Shown here: one piece after another, positions 2,451 through 63,535 of the stretch | Layout of the letters: each line of letters begins with the position of its first letter | How positions within the stretch are numbered: position 1 is the first letter of the stretch | Source: Lampris incognitus | Lineage: Eukaryota > Chordata > Actinopteri > Lampriformes > Lampridae | Assembly (NCBI RefSeq): GCF_029633865.1 | Contig: NC_079211.1 | Location: forward strand, 143,069,585-143,133,584 | Length of the DNA: 64,000 nucleotides | Reading direction: 5' to 3' | The notes under the pieces: model-generated | The model's database searches: none | What the model was told of the DNA's origin: nothing | What the model saw: the letters and a program-made list of their open reading frames with translations, nothing else | Translations under genes and position numbers: made by a program

Positions 2451-2975
2451 GTTGCTTTCTAAGACTGTCTTGCAAGCGAACAGCACAATCAAACGATACA
2501 GTGCTTTACTTGGTACCCTTTTAAGCAAATATAGCCCCCCAAAGTATTCAAACAATTTATAATATTCCAACATCTAATTACAAATGGGAGAATAAGCCAA
2601 AGGGGAAGGACCACGTTCAGGTCAAAGCGCTCTTCCCCAACATCCAATAAACGCCACGCCAGTTTCAGACACAGCCGATTAAACAAACTGGGGTTACTCG
2701 GCGGTTAGCTTGTTCAAACAGCCAGGCTTAAAACAAAGAAATCACCGGAAGGAAAAAAATCCCCCCACACCCACAACGGGTCGTAAAATCAAACCTCTCC
2801 GAGGCGCACTGATCCAAAGAAAACGATTATGGCAGCAGCCACGTCGCTTATAACGTAGGCTACTTCCTCACACGCCTAAAATCAAATAACACTTGCAACT
2901 TTTACTATCGCGCGTGTGCAAACCATCCCGGCTTGGACCTGATGATGCAATCATGGCTTTTTTTGTTTTTTTGGA

Positions 2976-3384
2976 TTTCCCCCCCTTTTCTCCCCCAGTT
3001 GTACCCGTCCAAATTAGCCCACTCTTCCGAGCCGGCCCGGTCGCTGCTCCACCCCCCTCTGCTGATCCGGGGAGGGCTGCAGACTACCACACGCCTCCTC
3101 CCATACATGTGGAGTCACCAGCCGCTTCTTTTCACCTGACAGTGAGGAGTTTCACCAGGGGACGTAGCGCGTGGGAGGATCCTCCATCCCCCCCCCCCCC
3201 GAACAGGTGCCCCGACCGACCAGAGGAGGCGCTAGTGCAGCGACCAGGACACACACCCACATCCGGCTTCCCACCCGCAGACACGGCACATCTATAGGGA
3301 CGCCCGACACGGGGATTCGATCCGGCGACCCCTGTGTTGGTAGCAACGCAACAGACGCTACGCTACCCGGACGCCCTCAATCAC
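2976..3384 (-). mobile_element. tRNA-headed SINE, copy 1
   Basis: Minus-orientation copy. The head at 3300-3380 contains GGATCGAATCCCC-type B-box sequence, and the body shares GAGGCGCTAGTGCAGCGACC and TGACAGTGAGGAGTTTCACC blocks with the other copies. The tail end is near 2976. Confidence 0.82.
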
Positions 3385-15730: not shown

Positions 15731-16180
15731 TGGGGGTGTCCATGTAGCGTAGCGGTCTATTTTGTTGCCTACCAACACGGGGATCGCCGGTTCGAATCCC
15801 CGTGTTACCTCCGGCTTGGTCGGGCGTCCCTGCAGACACAACTGGCCGTGTCTGCGGGTGGGAAGCCAGGTGTGGGTACGTGTCCTGGTCGCTGCACTAG
15901 CACCTCCTCTGGTCAGTCAGGGCGCCTGTTCAGGGGGGAAGGGGGTAACTGGGGAGAATAGCGTGATCCGTCCTGCTGGGCGAAACTCCTCACTGCCAGG
16001 GGGAAAGAAGCGGCTGGCGACTCCACATGTATCGGCGGAGGCATGTGGTAGTCTGCAGCCCTCCCTGGATCAGCAGAGGGGGTGGAGCAGCGACTGGGAC
16101 GGCTCGGAAGAGTGGGGTAATTGGCCGGATACTATCGGGAAGAAAAAGGGGGGAAAATCCCCACCCCCCCCAAAAAAAAC
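15731..16180 (+). mobile_element. tRNA-headed SINE, copy 2
   Basis: About 450 bp with the same order as copy 5: a tRNA-like head with GGTTCGAATCCCC near 15789, GTGTCTGCGGGTGGGAAGCC, GCACTAGCACCTCCTCTGG, GGCATGTGGTAGTCTGCAGC and a G/C/A-rich tail. Flanked on both sides by CATGCAT. Confidence 0.85.
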
Positions 16181-25002: not shown

Positions 25003-25697
25003 CGCTGTGAAAATGAGCGAAAACTGTCTAAAATGGGCTGGGGGGGGGGGGAAAGTTAACTTAGTAAACGGTTCCGTGTTTCTTCTTCTATCGTTCTTCT
25101 TCCAGGTAGGTAAACCTTTTCCTTTAGCGCAGTGCCGCCACCTGCTGTCCTAAATCGATCACACCCGAAACGCGATGACGTCACGTCAGCGCGTCTGACG
25201 GAGACGTGGGATGAGTATTGATTTGACGATGACGCTTCGATAAAGTATTGAAGTATCATAATCTTCATCACTTATGTGTGCGTAACTCATATAACCATGT
25301 TGCCTTTATGAAAACAAGAAGTTGGACAACAAATTCACTAATGAAAGATTTCTTCTTCTTTTTTTTTCGCACGATACCAAAGTGAACTTTGAGTCCGGGC
25401 TCATTTTTTTGAAAGCTACGGGAGTCATTTCTAATACAAGCTGACACGAAAATTAATAGCATTATATATAAAAATTAAAAAAATTAAAAAAAAAAAACTC
25501 CATGGCTAACGATGGTTAACCCCGCACGTGCAGGAGAAAAAAAGCGCCCCGGCGAGTAAAACGAACGCACCCTCCCGTCCGCCGTGTAGCCGCTCGGTGC
25601 CTGCCTAGCTTGATCCGGCGAGCAAGGCGTCAGCCAGCAAGACGTTGGGTGTTTGCCGTTATCGTAATAAGCTCCACGCCTCCGACGCGCCTAAAGA
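25003..25697. promoter_or_regulatory. Shared divergent promoter region of ankrd39 and kctd9
   Basis: This is the interval between the two start codons. It is CpG-rich towards kctd9 (around 25500-25690) and near 25170-25200, with no obvious TATA box, as expected for housekeeping divergent promoters. A consensus CRE palindrome TGACGTCA lies at 25176-25183. A G-run is at 25039-25050 and an A/T-rich tract at 25460-25498. Transcription start sites cannot be placed from sequence alone, so promoter status is inferred from the head-to-head layout. Confidence 0.6.
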
Positions 25698-28600
25698 ATG
25701 AGAAGAGTTACCTTGTTTGTTAACGGGACATCGAAGAACGGCAAGGTACGTAATAAGCTAACGCTAGCTGCGGGGCTAGCGTTAGCTAGGGGTACGGACG
25801 AGTTACCCCGGGCGGCGGAATGGCTGGCATTAACCCGGGCTATTCTTCGCATGATAAGCCGGCTGGGTCGTGTTGCTCACAAAGACTCAAACTTGTTTTA
25901 AGTGAGCGTGTTTCCAATCTAACTATACGTCACCTACCTCTAAGGTCAGGCCAGCCGCCTAGTCAAGTGAGCTAAACCTTCATGTTCCAGCTAGTAGCGC
26001 GAACCCACTTTTAAAGCACTGGGTCAGAACCTGATAATGTCATAAATCCCCGATGACGTAATAACCCGATAATGTAATAAAAATCTGTCCCTTTAGTCCA
26101 TTGAAAATGCGATAAAACCTGATAATGTAATAACTTCCTGATAATGTAATAAAGTACTACTACTACTACTACTACTTTCGGCTGCTCCCGCTAGGGGGCG
26201 CCACAGCGGATCATCCGTCTCCATCTCTTCCTGTCTTCTGCGTCTTCCTCTTGTCACACCAGCCACCTGCATGTCTTCCCTCACCACATCCGTAAACCTC
26301 CTCTTTGGCCTTCCTCTTCTCCTCTTCCCTGGCAGCTCCATATTCAGCGATAATGTAATAAAGCGCACTTCCCAATAATGTCATAAACTTTTCACCGATA
26401 ATGTAATAATGTGTCACATCATCGGGGCGTTGTTACATTATCAGGTTAGCCTTCGTTTCCCTGGTCCTGATAATGTAATAATTCCCCCAATATTGTAGTA
26501 ATTTAACAGCAGACCACCCGTAAATGGATTCAAGTGGCGATACTGTTTAAGCAACGCGAGCTCGAGAGGTCTAGCGCCACCGACAGGTCCAAGTTGGACG
26601 TGCGCGAATGCTCTACTCTTCCTCAAAGCTACCGCCAAGCTACTTCCACACACGTGTTTTTTCTCAGTTGGATCATTTTATTACATTATCAGGAAGTTAT
26701 TGCATTATCAGGTTTTACTGCATTTTCAATGGCCTCAAGTGCAATTTTTTTATTACATTATCAGGGTTATTGCATTATCAGGGTTATTACATTATCGGGG
26801 ATTTATTACGTTATCGGGTTATACAGACTCCAACCAGAACCCTTTTGGTAACACCTCACAACAACAAGCTAAGGGCTGTAGCTGAAAGCATGAGTTGAAA
26901 GACCTGTTTCAGTTTATCAAGTTCAGAGATTAACAAACACACTATGTTATTCTGTCTTCTGCAGGTTGTAGCAGTATACGGGACCTTGTCTGACCTGTTA
27001 TCTGTCGCAAGCAATAAATTGTCAATAAGGGCCTCCTGTCTATACAATGGAAGAGGTGGTCTCATAGATGACATTGCCCTGATCAGGTTAGTTTGATTTG
27101 CAACTTAGCTTTTGCAGTTCTTAGTTCATACATAGCAGATTTGGACTCGACACATTTTTTTTTTTTTTGCTAATAAATTATTAAGCACATGTATTCATGT
27201 TTGTGAAATCTGATCTTTAACAGAGATGATGATGTGCTATATGTCTCAGAGGGGGATCCATTTATTGGTAAGTGCCTTCTTGATAGTTTATAATTGTCTT
27301 CTTGAGAATCATAAATTACTTCTGTCTTGTGAATACTAAATGAAAGCACATCTTAGTCACTATTTCGCCCTTGTTTTCTTAAATTCGTGTTTCAGACCCT
27401 CAGAATGAATTTAAGGTTACGTCCGAGCAGCTTGGAGCACACACAGATTGGCTGACCCTCAATATAGGTGGTCGTCTCTTCACCACCACCCGGTTAGTAC
27501 TGGCGAAATCCCTCTAGTGTGTTAACCAGTACCCTAAGTCATATGGTGAATGGACACGCCAAAGCTCTTTGTGGACAACATAGAATAGATTTCTAAGTCT
27601 GACTATTCAAATGATCTGTTTTTCTCTTTTCTGTTGTAATTTGATGACTTTTTTTTCTTTGCTCATCTGGGAGCTCATAAGAGGTTTTCATTCTTATACA
27701 CAGGAGCACTTTGGTCAGTAAGGAGCCAGAAAGTATGCTTGCGCACATGTTCCGAGAGAGGGGTGAGTTAATCGAACAGCTGGTCACCGAGACACAAATT
27801 ATTTGGTTTTGTTATTGTGAGCCATCTGTTAGAATGAGGCTTGTGAACCTCTGTCTCCACTCTAGATGTGTGGGGAAACAAACAGGATGAGCATGGGGCG
27901 TACTTAATCGACCGTAGCCCGGAATACTTCGAGCCTATCCTCAACTACTTGAGACATGGTCAGCTCATTATCAATGATGGCATCAATATAAGGGGTATGT
28001 CTGGCCTTGTTGAAGTTCTGCAGTATTTCATAATTGGTTCTAAACTTTCTGGACAGAGAATAAAGTCATCACAGTGAATGCATGAATTTGTGTTCATGCA
28101 GTTATTGGTCGTGTTGTCTACACTGTCTCCCAGGTGTCCTGGAGGAGGCTCGGTTCTTTGGAATTGAGCAGCTTGCTGAGCAGTTGGAAGCGGCAATAAG
28201 GGTAATCTGAAGCTTGGGCCATTGGTGATATGCATAAGTGATGTGATAAATTCCCAGAATTCAAACTGAATGGCTACTCATGTTCCTACTAGAATTCACA
28301 GCCACCTGATGACCACTCCCCCATTTCTCGCAAAGAGTTTGTTCGCTTCCTACTAGCTACACCCACCAAATCGGAGCTCCGTTGCCAGGTACAGCTTACA
28401 GAAGATGTCATGTTCACGAATGATGCTACATGCACCAATTACCATAATAACACCACATCGAGCAAATATTTGACACCCTCTGTTACCCTTCAGGGTCTTA
28501 ATTTCAGTGGGGCTGATCTCTCTCGACTTGACCTGCGCTACATCAACTTCAAGATGGCCAACCTCAGCCGTTGCAACCTGACACATGCCAATTTATGCTG

Positions 28601-47572: not shown

Positions 47573-47882
47573 ATGGGTAGTGGGGGTAGTGAGGGTAGTG
47601 GGGGTCGTGAGGGTAGTGGGAGTAGTGGGGGTAGTGAGAGTAGCGGGGGTAGCGAGGGTAGTGGGAGTAGTTGGAGTAGCGAGGGTAGCGGGGGTAGTGG
47701 GAGTAGTGGGGGTAGTGAGGGTAGTGGGAGTCGTGGGAGTAGCGGGGGTAGTGAGGGTAGTGGGAGTAGTGGGGGTAGCGGGGGTAGTGGGGGTCGTGTG
47801 AGTAGTGGGGGTAGTGAGGGTAGTGGGAGTCGTGGGGGTAGTGGGGGTCGTGGGAGTAGTGGGGGTAGTGGGAGTCGTGGCA
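47573..47882. repeat. GGTAGTGGGAGTAGT-type minisatellite
   Basis: Tandem triplet-like units of GGT/AGT/GGG, reading as glycine-serine or valine-glycine runs in different frames. It explains the long open frames on both strands here, which are not genes. Confidence 0.88.
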
Positions 47883-48590: not shown

Positions 48591-49448
48591 TAGTTGTAGA
48601 CCACCACTGTAGACCCTTAGCTATAGACCAGGGATGGCTAACCATGTGCCATGGAGAGCCATGTGTATGCAGGTTTTCATTCCAGCCGGACTCCACACCA
48701 GGTGATTTCACTGATTAGCAACCCTTCAACCAAAGAGGAAGAATGTGTCGGTGAAATCGCCTGGTGTGGAGTCCAGCTGGAATGAAAACCTGCATACACA
48801 TGGCTCTCCATGGCACATGGTTAGCCACCGCTGCTGTAGACCCTAACTGTAGATCCCTAGCTGTAGACCCCTAATTGTAAACCCCTAGCTGTAGACTCGT
48901 AGCTCTAGACCATAGTTGTAGACCCCTAGCTGTAGATCATAGTTGTAGACCCCTAGCTGTAGAGCTCTAGCTGTAGACCATAGCTGTAGACACCTAGCTG
49001 TGGACAATAGTTGTAGACCCCTAGCTGTAGGCCATAGCTGTAGACCCCTAACTGTAGACCCCTAGCTGTAGTCTCATAGCTGTAGATCATAGCTGCAGAC
49101 ACCTAGCTGTAGACCCCTAGCTATAGACTCCTAGCTATAGACTCCTAGCTGTAGACCATAGCTGTAGACTCCTAGCTGTAGATCATAGCTGTAGACTCCT
49201 AGCTGTAGATCATAGCTGTAGACTCCTGGCTGTAGACTGTAGCTGTAGACTCCTAGCTGTAGATCATAGCTGTAGACTATAGCTGTAGACTCATAGCTGT
49301 AGACTTTTAGCTGTAGACCCCTAGCTGTAGATCATAGCTGTAGACTATAGCTGTAGACCCCTAGCTATAGACTACTGGCTGTAGACCATAGCTGTAGACT
49401 CCTAGCTGTAGATCATAGCTGTAGACTCATAGCTGTAGATCATAGCTG
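48591..49448. repeat. AGCTGTAGA minisatellite
   Basis: Tandem array of a unit of about 13 bp (CCTAGCTGTAGAC, CATAGCTGTAGAT and variants), several dozen copies, interrupted near its start by the hAT-like MITE. The array resumes at 50133-50189 after an inserted block. No coding potential. Confidence 0.9.
48629..48833. mobile_element. hAT-like palindromic MITE in a minisatellite
   Basis: A 205-bp element with inverted arms: the left starts CAGGGATGGCTAACCATGTG, and the right, read in reverse, starts CAGCGGTGGCTAACCATGTG. The arms share the CTGCATACACATGGCTCTCC segment. It is flanked by CTATAGAC and CTGTAGAC, an 8-bp near-duplication as expected for hAT elements, but the surrounding repeat unit makes this ambiguous. 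Confidence 0.75.
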
Positions 49449-50132
49449 TGTGTGTGTGTGTACATACACACAGGGTGTTGTGATGCGTCTAGTGCAGCAG
49501 TGTGTAGTTGGAGGGAAGGTGCATGTGTTCTTCCAACCCGCTTGTGTCCTTCCTGCCCTTAGCTTGCTGCCGCTGGCTAGCCTTTGTGGCGAATAGGGAA
49601 GCATCCTAGCGTGTAAGCCTTCCCTTGCCAGTACATAGCCTCTCCTTCACCAAGACTCCTGCCAGGCCTCCCCGTGGCCACACATGGTAACTGGGGTCTT
49701 GCGGCCCCAAGCTAACTTGGCAGGGGATCTCGGAGCAGCAGTGGGCCCCAGAGATATGGTGTGCAGGCCCTGGCACCTATCAACCTCTGCCCCGCTGCCT
49801 TGTGGGTGAGTCTGGAAGACATAAGGCTAAGGGAGCTTACCCCAACAGAAAAGCAAGCTGTGGCGGCACGCTTCGAGGCGGTTTCCGAAAAACTGGATTT
49901 CCGGCAGCCCCCTGCAGTTGTGTGGAGGTGCCGGTCGTCTAGGGATCCCCCTTGCCATCGGAACCATCTCCTCTACAATCAAGTCATGTGGCGTTGGGAG
50001 AAGCGCACCCCCCATGCCACTTTAAAAACCATCTCTGCGCAGGTATCTTCTGCTATCTGAGTCCTCAAAGGACCCACAAATAGAAGAAGATGGTCATCAT
50101 CGGGCACGATGGACAACCAGCAAGCAAGCAAG
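49449..50132 (+). other. Unrecognised ~680-bp block inserted in the minisatellite
   Basis: It starts with a short TG repeat and ends in a repeated AGCA tail (CAGCAAGCAAGCAAG). Minisatellite units lie directly on both sides. A 99-aa frame at 49761-50060 contains ELTPTEKQAVAARFEAV and RQPPAVVWRC; I do not recognise it. The tail and the sharp junctions suggest a 5'-truncated retroposon in plus orientation, but the family is unknown to me. Confidence 0.45.
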
Positions 50133-53340: not shown

Positions 53341-53911
53341 TGGGCGTCCGGGTGGCGTGGCGGTCTGTTCCATTGTCTACCAACACGGGGGATCGCCGGT
53401 TCGAATCCCCGCGTTATCTCCAGCTTCATCGGGCGTCCCTGCAGACACAATTGGCCGTGTCTGCGGGTGGGAAGCCGGATGCAGGTATGTGTCCTGGTCG
53501 CTGCACTAGCGCCTCCTCTGGTCAGTCGGGACACCTGTTCACGGGGGGAACTAGGGCGTCCCTAGAGACACAATTGGCCATGTCTGCAGGTGGGAAGGCG
53601 GATGTGGGTATGTGTCCTGATCGATGCACTAGCGCCTCCTCTGGTCAGTTGGGGCGCCTGTTTAGGGGGGGGAACTGGGGGGAATAGCGTGACCCTCCCA
53701 CGCGCTACGTCCCCCTGGTGAAACGCCTCACTGTCAGGTGAAAAGAAGCAGCTGGCGACTCCACGTGTCAGAGGAGGCATGTGGTAGTCTGCAGCCCTCC
53801 CCGGATCGGCAGAGGGGGTGGAGCAGCGACTGGGACAGCTCGGAAGAGTGGGGTAATTGGCCGGATACAATTGGGGAGGAAAACGGGGGGAAAATCCCCC
53901 CCCCCAAAAAA
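53341..53911 (+). mobile_element. tRNA-headed SINE, copy 5 (full length, internal duplication)
   Basis: Starts GGGCGTCCGGGTGGCGTGGC with a tRNA-like head (GGTTCGAATCCCC at about 53399-53411). It ends in a G-run then A-run. The direct repeat AAAGCTTATT flanks both ends. A segment of about 110 bp (GGGCGTCC through GGTCAGT) occurs twice, at about 53428-53530 and 53547-53650. Confidence 0.88.
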
Positions 53912-60614: not shown

Positions 60615-62054
60615 CTAATATTGTGTAGCCCCCCCGCCGCCCCGCCATGTCGCTAAAACAACTCTGACCTGTTGAGGCATGGACGCCACAAGACCTCTGA
60701 AGGTGACCTCTGCTATCTGGCACCAAGACGTTAGCAACAGATCCTTTAAGTCCTGCAGGTTGCAAGGTGGGACCTCCATGGATCAGACTTGTTTTTGCAG
60801 CACACCCCACAGATGTTTGATTGGACTGAGATCTGGGGAATTCGGAGGCCATGGCAACACCTTGAACTCTTTGTCATGTTCCTCAAACCATTCCTGAACA
60901 ATTTTTTCAGTGTGGCAGAGCGCATTATCCTGCTGAAAGAGGCCGCCACCACCAGGGAATGCTGCTGGTAGGTGGTACGTGTCAAAATAACATCCACATA
61001 AATGCCAGGACCCAAGGTTTCCCAGCAGAACATTGCCCAGAGCATCACATTGCCTCTGCCGGCTTGCCTTCTTTAGATATTGCATCCTGGTGCCATCTTT
61101 TCCCCAGATAAATGATATACATGCACCCGGCCATCCACTTGATGCAAAATAAAACATGATTCATCAGACCAGACCAACTTTTTCCACTGCTCCATGGTCC
61201 AGTTCTAACGCTCACGTGCCCATTGTAGGCACTTTCGGCAGTGGACAGGGGTCATCATGGGCACTCTGACCAGTCTGCGGCTACGCAGCCCCATACACAG
61301 CAACCTGAAATGTACTGTGTTCTGACACATGTCTATCATAGTCAGCATTAACCTTTTCAGCAATTTGAGCTACAGTTGCACTTCTGTAGGACCGGACCAA
61401 ATGGGCTGGCCTTCACTCTCCATGCACATCAATGAGCCTTGGGTGCCCATGACACTGTTGCTGGTTCACCGGTTTTCCTTCCTTGGACCACTCCCCCCCC
61501 CTTTTTTTTCTCCCCAATTATATCTGGCCAATTACCCCACTCTTCCAAGCCATCTCGGTTGCTGCTCCACCCTCTCTGCCAAGCCGGGGAGGGCTGCAGA
61601 CTCCACATGTCTTCTCCGATACATGTGGAGTTGCCAGCTGCTTCTTTTCACCTGACAGTGAGGAGTTCCGCCAGAGGGACGCAGCGCGTGGGAGGATCAC
61701 GCTATTCCCCCCCCCCCGCCCCTGAACAGGTGCCCCGACCGACTGGAGGAGGCGCTAGTGCAGCAACCAGGACACATACCCACAACTAGCTTCCCGCTTG
61801 CAGACACGGCCGATTGTGTCTGTAGGGATGCCCAACCAAGCCGGAGGTAACATGGGGAATCGAACCGGCGATACCCGTATTGGTAGGCAACGGAATAGAC
61901 CACTACGCTACCCAGACACCCCCTTGGACCACTTCACCTTTCCATACCGGGAACACCCTACAAGACCTGCCGTTTTGGAGATGCTCTGACCCAGTCCTCT
62001 AGCCATCACAATTTGGCCCTTGTTAAAGTTGTTCAGATCCTTACGCTTGCCCAT
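60615..62054 (-). pseudogene. Tc1-like transposase remnant, interrupted
   Basis: The N-terminal part begins [20 protein letters not shown] near 62054 and runs to the SINE insertion. After the SINE, the catalytic part continues with LFQQDNALCHTEKIVQEWF and LPWPPNSPDLSPIKHLW. The final catalytic glutamate position (usually NPIE) reads SPIK, and there are frame breaks, so this copy is dead. It ends TQY followed by TAG at 60615. Confidence 0.85.
61490..61921 (-). mobile_element. tRNA-headed SINE, copy 6
   Basis: Minus-orientation copy of the recurring SINE. The tRNA-like head at 61840-61921 contains the B-box GGTTCGATTCCCC. The body contains the shared GAGGCGCTAGTGCAGC block and a G-rich/poly-A tail end at 61490. 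It is flanked by CTTGGACCACT on both sides, a target-site duplication in the host Tc1 element. Confidence 0.85.
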
Positions 62055-62150: not shown

Positions 62151-63535
62151 CAGTCTACTACTACTACTACTACTACTACTTTTGGCTGCTGCCGTTAGGG
62201 GGCGCCACAGCGGATCATCCGTTTCCATCTCTTTCTGTCCTCTGCATCTTCCTCTGTCACACCAGCCACCTTGCATGTCCTCCCTCACCACAGCCTCCTC
62301 TTTGGCCTTCCTCTTCTCCTCTGCTCTGGCAGCTCCATATTCAGCGTCCTTCTCCCAATATACCAGCATCTCTCCTCCACACATGTCCAAACCATCTCAA
62401 TCTTGTCTCTCTTGCTTTGTCTCCAAACAGTCCAACCTGAGCGGTCCCTCTAATATACTTGTTCCTAATCCTGTCCTTCTTCGTCACTTCCAATGAAAAT
62501 CTTAGCATCTTCAACTCTGCCACCTCCAACTCCACCTCCCGACTTTTCGTCAGTGCCACTGTCTCCAAACCATATAACATAGCTGGTCTCACAACCATCT
62601 TGTAAACCTTCCCTTTAACTCTTGCTGGTACCCTTCTGTCGCAAATCACTCCTGACACTCTTCTCCACCCCTCTTCCGCACTCCCCGTTACTTCCAACAG
62701 TTGACCCCAAGTATTTAAAATCTTGCGCCTTGCATCCTGACCATTCCACTGTCCTCCCTCTCATTCATGCATATGTATTCCGTCTTGCTCCGACTGACTT
62801 TCATTCCTCTTCTGTCTAGTGCACACCTCCACCTCTCCAGACTCTCCTCAACCTGCACCCTACTCTCACTACAGATCACAATGTCATTCACGAACATCAT
62901 AGTCCACAGAGACTCCTGCCTGATCTCACCCATCAACCTGTCCATCACCACTGCAAACATTAAAGGGCTCAGAGCCGATCCTTGATGTAATCCCACCTCC
63001 ACCTCGAACCCATCTGTCATTCCAACCGCACACCTCACCACTGTCACACTTCCCTCATACATACTATACTGCACCACTCCTACATACTTCTCTGCCACGC
63101 CTGACTTCCTCATACAATTTCACACCTCTTCTCTCGGCACTCTGTCATATGCTTTCTCTAAACCCACAAAGACACAATGTAACTCCTTCTGGCCTTCTCT
63201 GTACTTCTCCATCAATATTCTCAAAGCAAACATCACATCTGTGGTGCTCTTTCGTGGCATGAAACCACACTGCTGCTCGCTAATCATTGCCTCCCCTCTT
63301 CACTTAGCTTCCACTACTCTCTCCCATATCTTCACGCTGTGGCTGATCAACTTTATACCTCTATAGTTGCTACAGCTCTGCACATCGCCCTTATTCTTGA
63401 AAATCTGTACCAGTAAAATTCTTCTCCACTCCTCAGGCATCCTCTCACGTTCCAAGATTGTGTTAAACAATTTAAAAATTCCACTGCCATCTCTCCTAAA
63501 CACCTCCATGCCTCCACAGGTATGTCACAGGTATG
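62151..63535 (-). mobile_element. RTE-type LINE fragment (reverse transcriptase, 5' truncated)
   Basis: Minus-strand blocks read as RTE reverse transcriptase. NYRGIKLISH is near 63350. CAVGMTDGFEVEVGLHQGSA and LSPLMFAVVMDRL lie in 62715-63113, and RGMKVSRSKTEY follows. The YADD box is degraded (MMFVNDIVI). The C-terminal part ([13 protein letters not shown] near 62390, then the [14 protein letters not shown]-like end) precedes an (AGT)n 3' tail at 62157-62180. A duplicated ATAATCA-type target site flanks it. Frames are broken in several places. Confidence 0.85.

Follow-up and report, generated by a model that had tools for sequence, protein, structure and literature searches.

A foldback-armed element in intron 1 of a kctd9-like gene is very probably an old deletion derivative of a Ginger-like DNA transposon

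The described systems closest to the element analyzed here are DNA transposons with a retroviral-type integrase and foldback elements of other superfamilies. Ginger1 transposons have TGTNR ends, a Gypsy-type DDE integrase with YPYY, H2C2 and GPY/F motifs, a C-terminal OTU or Ulp1 domain (OTU in several families), long inverted repeats, and target duplications of 4 bp (CCGG or CCGT); their short non-autonomous relatives share these ends (Bao, Kapitonov and Jurka 2010, PMC2836005). Ginger2 elements have TG..CA ends, an integrase core with an H2C2 finger and neither GPY/F nor YPYY, an AT-rich RTATAY target and, in metazoan members, 4-bp duplications, with no OTU domain described in the Ginger2 section of that paper; the Dictyostelium elements TDD-4 and TDD-5 make 5-bp duplications (PMC2836005). 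The duplications of IS481EU are about 4, 15 or 25 bp (PMC10045372). The vertebrate genes GIN1 and GIN2, the latter present in fishes, also come from integrase-type DNA transposons (PMC3424704), but they are domesticated genes that keep an HHCC finger, in contrast to the mobile multicopy families described below. In zebrafish, 6053 Ginger fragments (0.04%) are on record (PMC4746887), and Ginger-class repeats are thus annotated in teleosts. Relics have been recorded in frog and coelacanth, and Ginger is not mentioned in the passages of PMC7599744. Because of these records the class is not claimed as new to fishes, and because of the zebrafish fragments a named fish relative may already exist in Repbase or Dfam. 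Foldback arms are reported to have evolved more than once, in separate lineages and mainly in Mutator (PMC4079207). Two Drosophila elements, Tetris (PMC4079207) and Galileo (PMC3573991), have long, internally repetitive inverted arms of variable length and deletion derivatives consisting mainly of arms, Galileo being a foldback element of the P superfamily (PMC3573991), and some foldback elements, e.g. Tetris, have no known transposase (PMC4079207, PMC3573991).

The present element lies in the first intron of a kctd9-like gene within the window, which is the whole stretch of 64,000 nucleotides of Lampris incognitus DNA that was analyzed. The features of the locus are as follows.

25698-25745, plus strand: coding part of exon 1 of the kctd9-like gene
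25746..26964, plus strand: intron 1 of the kctd9-like gene, 1219 bp, splice sites picked by eye
26965-27086, plus strand: exon 2 of the kctd9-like gene
26023..26825, no strand assigned: non-autonomous foldback-armed transposon copy, putatively Ginger-like, ends placed by comparison with 39 loci
26023..26154, plus strand: left terminal arm with five iterons in plus orientation (26033, 26052, 26068, 26121, 26140), from motif matches and arm pairing
26140-26154: end of the left arm, first copy of the 15-bp duplication made by a LINE
26155..26348, minus strand: later insertion, a 194-bp 3' LINE fragment with a (GTA)n tail at 26155-26176, from the LINE match and the 15-bp duplication
26349..26363, plus strand: second 15-bp copy, GATAATGTAATAAAG, of the duplication made by the LINE, read from the sequence
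26364..26499, no strand assigned: left subterminal part, its iterons pointing both ways (26374 plus, 26397 plus, 26430 minus, 26469 plus), from motif matches
26500..26676, no strand assigned: core nearly or entirely free of iterons, sharing with the left part its origin in one end of the 5-kb element, by match to long copies
26677..26825, minus strand: right terminal arm with six iterons in minus orientation (26678, 26697, 26750, 26767, 26784, 26803), from motif matches

The name kctd9 was given to the host gene in the initial annotation; it has been tested solely by the KHA domain in the first 71 residues of the gene product (E 1e-19), with which it is consistent. The element was also said there to make up much of intron 1, and it indeed occupies 803 of the 1219 bp, two thirds of the intron, with the predicted exon 1 donor 277 bp and the exon 2 acceptor 139 bp outside it. 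For kctd9, the window copy appears to be ordinary intronic transposon debris, and no finding of the analysis points to a role in that gene.

The iterated inverted arms proposed in the initial annotation are borne out. The motif GATAATGTAATAA occurs 18 times in the 64-kb window when up to two mismatches are allowed, compared with 2.05 expected for the whole window, and 16 of these sites fall inside 26033-26815; none of 100 shuffles attains 18. The arms pair with 84% complementarity over 100 nt (26065-26164 with 26666-26765) and 88% over 40 nt (26028-26067 with 26781-26820). Comparison with 39 other loci places the bounds at 26023-26825, 803 bp including the LINE insert, so that of the span first proposed (26029..26825) the right end stands and the element is slightly longer on the left. 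The whole span had been taken as one element, and here the LINE fragment has to be set outside the element proper. This fragment is bracketed by the 15-bp sequence GATAATGTAATAAAG at 26140-26154 and 26349-26363 and matches, at 95.6% identity across 183 bp, a LINE within another locus, L050 (4548-4729 of that locus), which bears an RVT_1 domain (E 9.1e-34). It is a later addition to the window copy. An Rfam search of 25500-27500 gave no match.

The window copy belongs to a dispersed family (family A). It has at least 308 matches in its own genome (the best 40 of 2353 candidates being scored), and the terminal 24-mer of the family has 211 matches on one strand and 213 on the other genome-wide when one mismatch is allowed, compared with 0 for the reversed control. 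Copies start with TGTAGAACCTGATAATGTAATAA and finish with its reverse complement. A total of 57 loci was examined, 39 from matches to the window copy and 18 from end pairs among the first 100 places of the terminal 24-mer, and both ends are present in 56. A perfect 5-bp direct duplication flanks 43 of these 56 copies, a figure favored by the choice, where one locus offered several ends, of the pair with the best 5-bp match; 4 of 5 positions agree in 5/56 and three or fewer in 8/56. With a fixed choice of the first and last end, 30/39 agree at 4 or more of the 5 positions, the window copy (0 of 5) being counted. When the left flank of one copy is paired with the right flank of another, the 5 bp agree in 15/3080 cases. 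Perfect duplications of 2, 4, 6, 8 or 9 bp were found in 0/56, and those of 3 bp and 7 bp once each. The target is 67% GC, compared with 46% in the flanks, and loosely follows RGSCY. Two of the loci, L024 and L038, have common flanks and are therefore not independent insertions. For the window copy itself, no target duplication could be recognized at its ends (0 of 5 positions). The last bases of its termini, GTCAGAACC..GGTTATACA, are changed relative to the family termini TGTAGAACC..GGTTCTACA.

Unoccupied relatives of the target repeats contain the 5 bp once, with a gapless junction. Such empty sites were seen for L040 (against L025 and L027), for a small copy in L052 (compared with the LINE of L050 and with a related stretch at window 62543-62986) and for L061 (compared with L063, which is 76% identical and gapped nine bases downstream), and the agreement is less exact for L010 against L013; the comparison covers six of eight chosen flank pairs, L010/L036 and L013/window being left out. 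Copies with the same termini, defined ends TGTA..TACA, duplications and empty sites together bear out the initial proposal of a mobile element with foldback arms, for which a search for further copies and their alignment had been suggested; neither a lack of copies sharing these termini nor a mere local tandem expansion was found. The window stretch 62543-62986 is a 77% relative of the LINE that hosts a member of this family in L052. A dispersed repeat found next to the L013 copy also occurs four times in the window (53694-53911, 15962-16179, 2973-3178 and 61506-61695; 83.6-87.8% identity). At 583-940 of L059 lies a short copy, with left flank CTGATAATGT and duplication AATGT, whose target seems to have been an iteron in a different copy.

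The family ends recur on four long copies, each flanked by a perfect 5-bp duplication.

L048, 1001-5989: long copy, duplication AGGCA
L049, 1001-6054: long copy, duplication AGGTG
L050, 1001-9085: long copy enlarged by a LINE, duplication GGGAG
L052, 877-5734: long copy, duplication AGGCC

The element is about 5 kb long, and its arms are inverted repeats of about 378 bp with about 90% identity. The internal frames match the DDE integrase profile rve (E 8.1e-11 in L050 and 6.8e-9 in L049), with an acidic triad spaced D-62-D-34-E, and the closest solved structure is the PFV (foamy-virus) integrase (E 1.6e-15), Ty3 giving 1.7e-8. Downstream of the integrase lies an OTU cysteine protease domain (E 8.6e-8 in L049 and 2.5e-7 in L048; in L050, E 0.0049, under the Pfam cut-off), for which the search of solved structures gave a best E of 0.11, not significant. 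Weak matches in the profile scans were PAH (E 0.0054) and DUF7019. An F-box suspected by eye in the C-terminal part has no Pfam support and was rejected. As they stand, the frames have three stops in L049 and one in L050, and L048 changes frame, so none of the four long copies counts as demonstrably functional. A protein search of the genome returned, among the best 99 of 17669 candidates, at least 16 matches with 87% identity or more at 13 places, the others being 39-62% identical. On the minus strand at 126-1208 of L049, an adjoining open frame finishes with a Gypsy-like integrase piece (rve_3, E 8e-5), only the terminal part of such an enzyme, and L049 is therefore probably inserted into an LTR retrotransposon.

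The short copies are internal-deletion derivatives of this 5-kb element, formed by a single deletion with a 3-4 bp overlap at the junction. A majority consensus of 17 short copies (573 bp; the copies are 96.5-99.1% identical to it) corresponds at 1-442 to one end of the long copies (97.7-99.5%) and at about 440-573, some 134 bp, to the other (96.3-99.2%). In the window element, positions 327-654 match one long-copy end and 651/652-777 the other, with the deletion junction at 26673-26676; sharing this junction, the window copy belongs to the same deletion lineage. Other short sizes, e.g. 292-403 bp, indicate that further deletions have happened. The divergence of the 17 copies from their consensus, 0.9-3.5%, suggests rather recent movement. 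The window copy is more diverged than these 17, with 93.4% identity to the consensus over 453 bp and 92.4% over 131 bp (K80 0.068; 27 transitions and 10 transversions in 572 columns), and by alignment its right arm contains one additional iteron that the consensus lacks. The arrays differ in length from copy to copy in general, L016 having many minus-strand iterons. A short copy in L031 (995-2711) has head-to-tail repeats of an approximately 191-bp unit within its arms, possibly the start of a satellite.

A second family in the same genome, of which four copies were fetched, has an integrase about 50% identical to that of family A. Its copy L076 has an 838-aa open frame with rve (E 1.3e-9) and OTU (E 9.9e-6) domains. 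The ends are TGTAGCGCCGCATTATGTAATAA, the inverted arms measure 568-578 bp (87-96%), and the terminal sequence has 129 and 133 matches in the genome, with 0 for the control. Among 25 end pairs formed from the first 100 of the 262 terminal places, the 5-bp duplication is perfect in 20 and agrees at 4 of 5 positions in the other 5 (control 3/600), and duplications of 3, 4, 6, 7 or 8 bp were found in 0/25. No perfect duplication flanks L076, and L077 is a compound copy. Over their outermost 23 bp, the two families are alike at 18 positions; with the first five bases set aside, 13 of 18 agree, a score attained by 9 of 100000 shuffles. The family A iteron CCTGATAATGTAATAA, with up to four mismatches, has 8, 6 and 7 sites in the first 260 bp of the three second-family copies examined (3/3), compared with 0.08-0.12 expected and 0 in mid-element stretches. 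The part of the iteron common to both families is the inner half, ATGTAATAA, and the outer half differs. One iteron list was made with a pattern fixing the last seven letters, which are conserved there by construction; the cross-family test had no fixed letters. In G000, many near-identical integrase fragments are closely spaced on two contigs, C18 (approximately 0.32-1.79 Mb) and C30 (approximately 0.14-1.79 Mb), covering query positions 8-259 at 55-56% identity with two TAA, as if a second-family copy had been amplified within a larger repeat unit.

With the shared ends, the 5-bp duplications, the empty sites, the deletion origin and the domains of the long copies, the window feature is very probably an old non-autonomous copy of an integrase-type (Ginger-like) cut-and-paste DNA transposon, a deletion derivative mobilized in trans. 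The full element of about 5 kb, with inverted arms of about 378 bp made of 16-19-bp iterons, encodes a protein in which an OTU cysteine protease comes after a retroviral-type DDE integrase. A single internal deletion left 442 bp plus 134 bp, and the resulting form of about 573 bp has spread, presumably moved in trans. The integrase may bind the iterons as repeated subterminal sites and pair the arms, cut at TGTA..TACA and join the ends with a 5-bp stagger to GC-rich (RGSCY-like) target DNA, and the OTU domain may aid transposition. The window copy would have entered intron 1, decayed and then received the LINE fragment. A foldback transposon or an array of protein-binding sites had originally been offered as alternatives; the copies, ends, duplications and empty sites establish the transposon, and both may hold, since the repeated 16-letter motif probably marks binding sites of the mover enzyme. 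Such recognition by the integrase would fit the finding that two families whose transposases have diverged still share an iteron that is conserved in part.

The alternative that survives best concerns the iterons only: replication slippage in the AT-rich arms could have produced them, and chance, not a function as transposase sites, could have kept them. The widely varying array length and the local amplification in L016 and L031 agree with this, and slippage or unequal exchange, by which the arrays may lengthen and shorten, would account for that variation. We nevertheless regard chance by-products as rather unlikely. Galileo offers a parallel in its subterminal tandem repeats, which have been proposed as secondary transposase sites (PMC3573991). 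A related iteron recurs in the arms, and not in the middle, of a second family whose integrase is only about half identical, and the similarity of the outermost 23 bp of the two families (18/23; 13/18 past the first five, 9 of 100000 shuffles) also argues against chance.

For each of the other alternatives the probability is very low. Transib duplications are GC-rich and 5 bp long. The 5-bp duplications of hAT5 elements (PMC12730594) would likewise suit a non-autonomous element of one of these other superfamilies. This origin is nonetheless very improbable, as an integrase-OTU frame lies between such ends in the long copies and in the second family; neither a hAT domain nor the RAG1-like transposase of Transib was found in the scanned ORFs of a long copy, where only rve and OTU were detected, and the ends are TG..CA here as against mostly CA..TG in the group containing Transib (PMC12730594). 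Similarly small is the chance that a host array of protein-binding sites was selected at kctd9: a dense iterated motif does lie near a first exon, but the same structure occurs at hundreds of places, and the window copy, at a K80 of 0.068, is more diverged than the 17 consensus copies. A classical Mutator-lineage Foldback transposon, with tandem-repeat arms and a Mutator-type transposase, and an LTR retrotransposon relic are both already disfavored. The former is scarcely credible; its arms would likewise be short direct units in inverted orientation, and foldback elements are reported to be mostly of the Mutator superfamily (PMC4079207), but the duplications are 5 bp long here, with 8 bp in 0/56 and 9 bp in 0/56, in contrast to 8-10 bp for Tetris (PMC4079207). 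The four long copies with the same ends have an integrase-OTU frame instead. TG..CA ends with 5-bp duplications are also typical of LTR elements. A solo LTR or TRIM relic, for which the TGTNR ends as in Gypsy (PMC2836005), the 5-bp duplication and the retroviral-type integrase could be cited, is just as remote, because the terminal repeats are inverted and not direct, and reverse transcriptase, RNase H and protease domains are absent from the nine L049 ORFs and pieces scanned, the RVT_1 in L050 being that of the inserted LINE.

Compared with the described systems, the Ginger-like transposon proposed here resembles Ginger1 in its TGTAG ends in both families, which agree with TGTNR, in its Gypsy/retrovirus-type DDE core (rve in L049, L050 and L076), in the C-terminal OTU domain (L048, L049 and L076; L050 below the cut-off), in the long inverted repeats and in the short non-autonomous relatives with the same ends. 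It differs in the 5-bp GC-rich, RGSCY-like duplication, perfect 4-bp duplications such as CCGG or CCGT/ACGG being found in 0/56 and 0/25, and in having foldback arms made of iterons; none of the words iteron, subterminal and tandem appears in the Ginger paper (PMC2836005). The literal YPYY, H2C2 and GPY/F patterns are absent from the L049, L050 and L076 proteins scanned; degenerate forms may exist, as may an upstream exon, and no zinc-finger profile is among the Pfam hits of the integrase proteins. Agreement of ends, core and OTU domain, set against the duplication and motifs, is the reason for the name Ginger-like and not Ginger1. With Ginger2 and the TDD elements the families share TG..CA ends, the integrase core, the absence of GPY/F and YPYY (as literal patterns) and, for TDD-4 and TDD-5, the 5-bp duplication length; of their target properties this length alone agrees, the target being 67% GC and not AT-rich RTATAY, and the H2C2 finger of those elements was likewise not found as a literal pattern. 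Like Tetris and Galileo, the families have long inverted arms of short direct units parted by a middle domain, but they differ from them in the duplications (8-10 bp in Tetris, 7 bp in Galileo) and in having an integrase in place of a Mutator or P superfamily transposase (PMC4079207, PMC3573991). Judged from its sequence, the element is thus best described as a foldback architecture on a Ginger-like, retroviral-integrase-type DNA transposon, neither classical Ginger1 nor Mutator-type Foldback.

Literature searches with the letters of the iteron and ends gave no transposon paper by title and abstract, those on teleost foldback or subterminal repeats gave a giant-transposon review only, and those on fish Ginger with Gypsy integrase, OTU and target duplication gave Bao et al. 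only. As far as these searches show, the present case adds an integrase-type lineage to the foldback-armed elements, and the likely mover of these elements is identified as one of retroviral-integrase type. Two families with a common plan and part of the iteron in one genome make the use of many binding sites per end by integrase-type transposases testable. A bolder and somewhat doubtful proposal is that the two families form a separate fish lineage of integrase-OTU DNA transposons outside Ginger1 and Ginger2, with a 5-bp RGSCY-like target, loss of the zinc finger and GPY/F, and foldback-arm iterons acting as repeated transposase binding sites. Such a lineage would be one more in which foldback arms arose, and if only the outer half of the iteron changes and the inner half is kept, the sequence could reveal how ends are recognized.

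The window contains further repeats of other kinds. A minisatellite at 48833-49449 has approximately 44 copies of the 14-bp unit GCTGTAGACCCCTA, and a second at 47575-47880 consists of 18-bp units (GGGTAGTGGGGGTAGTGG). At 53431-53680, a 123-bp unit is duplicated in tandem with 87% matches.
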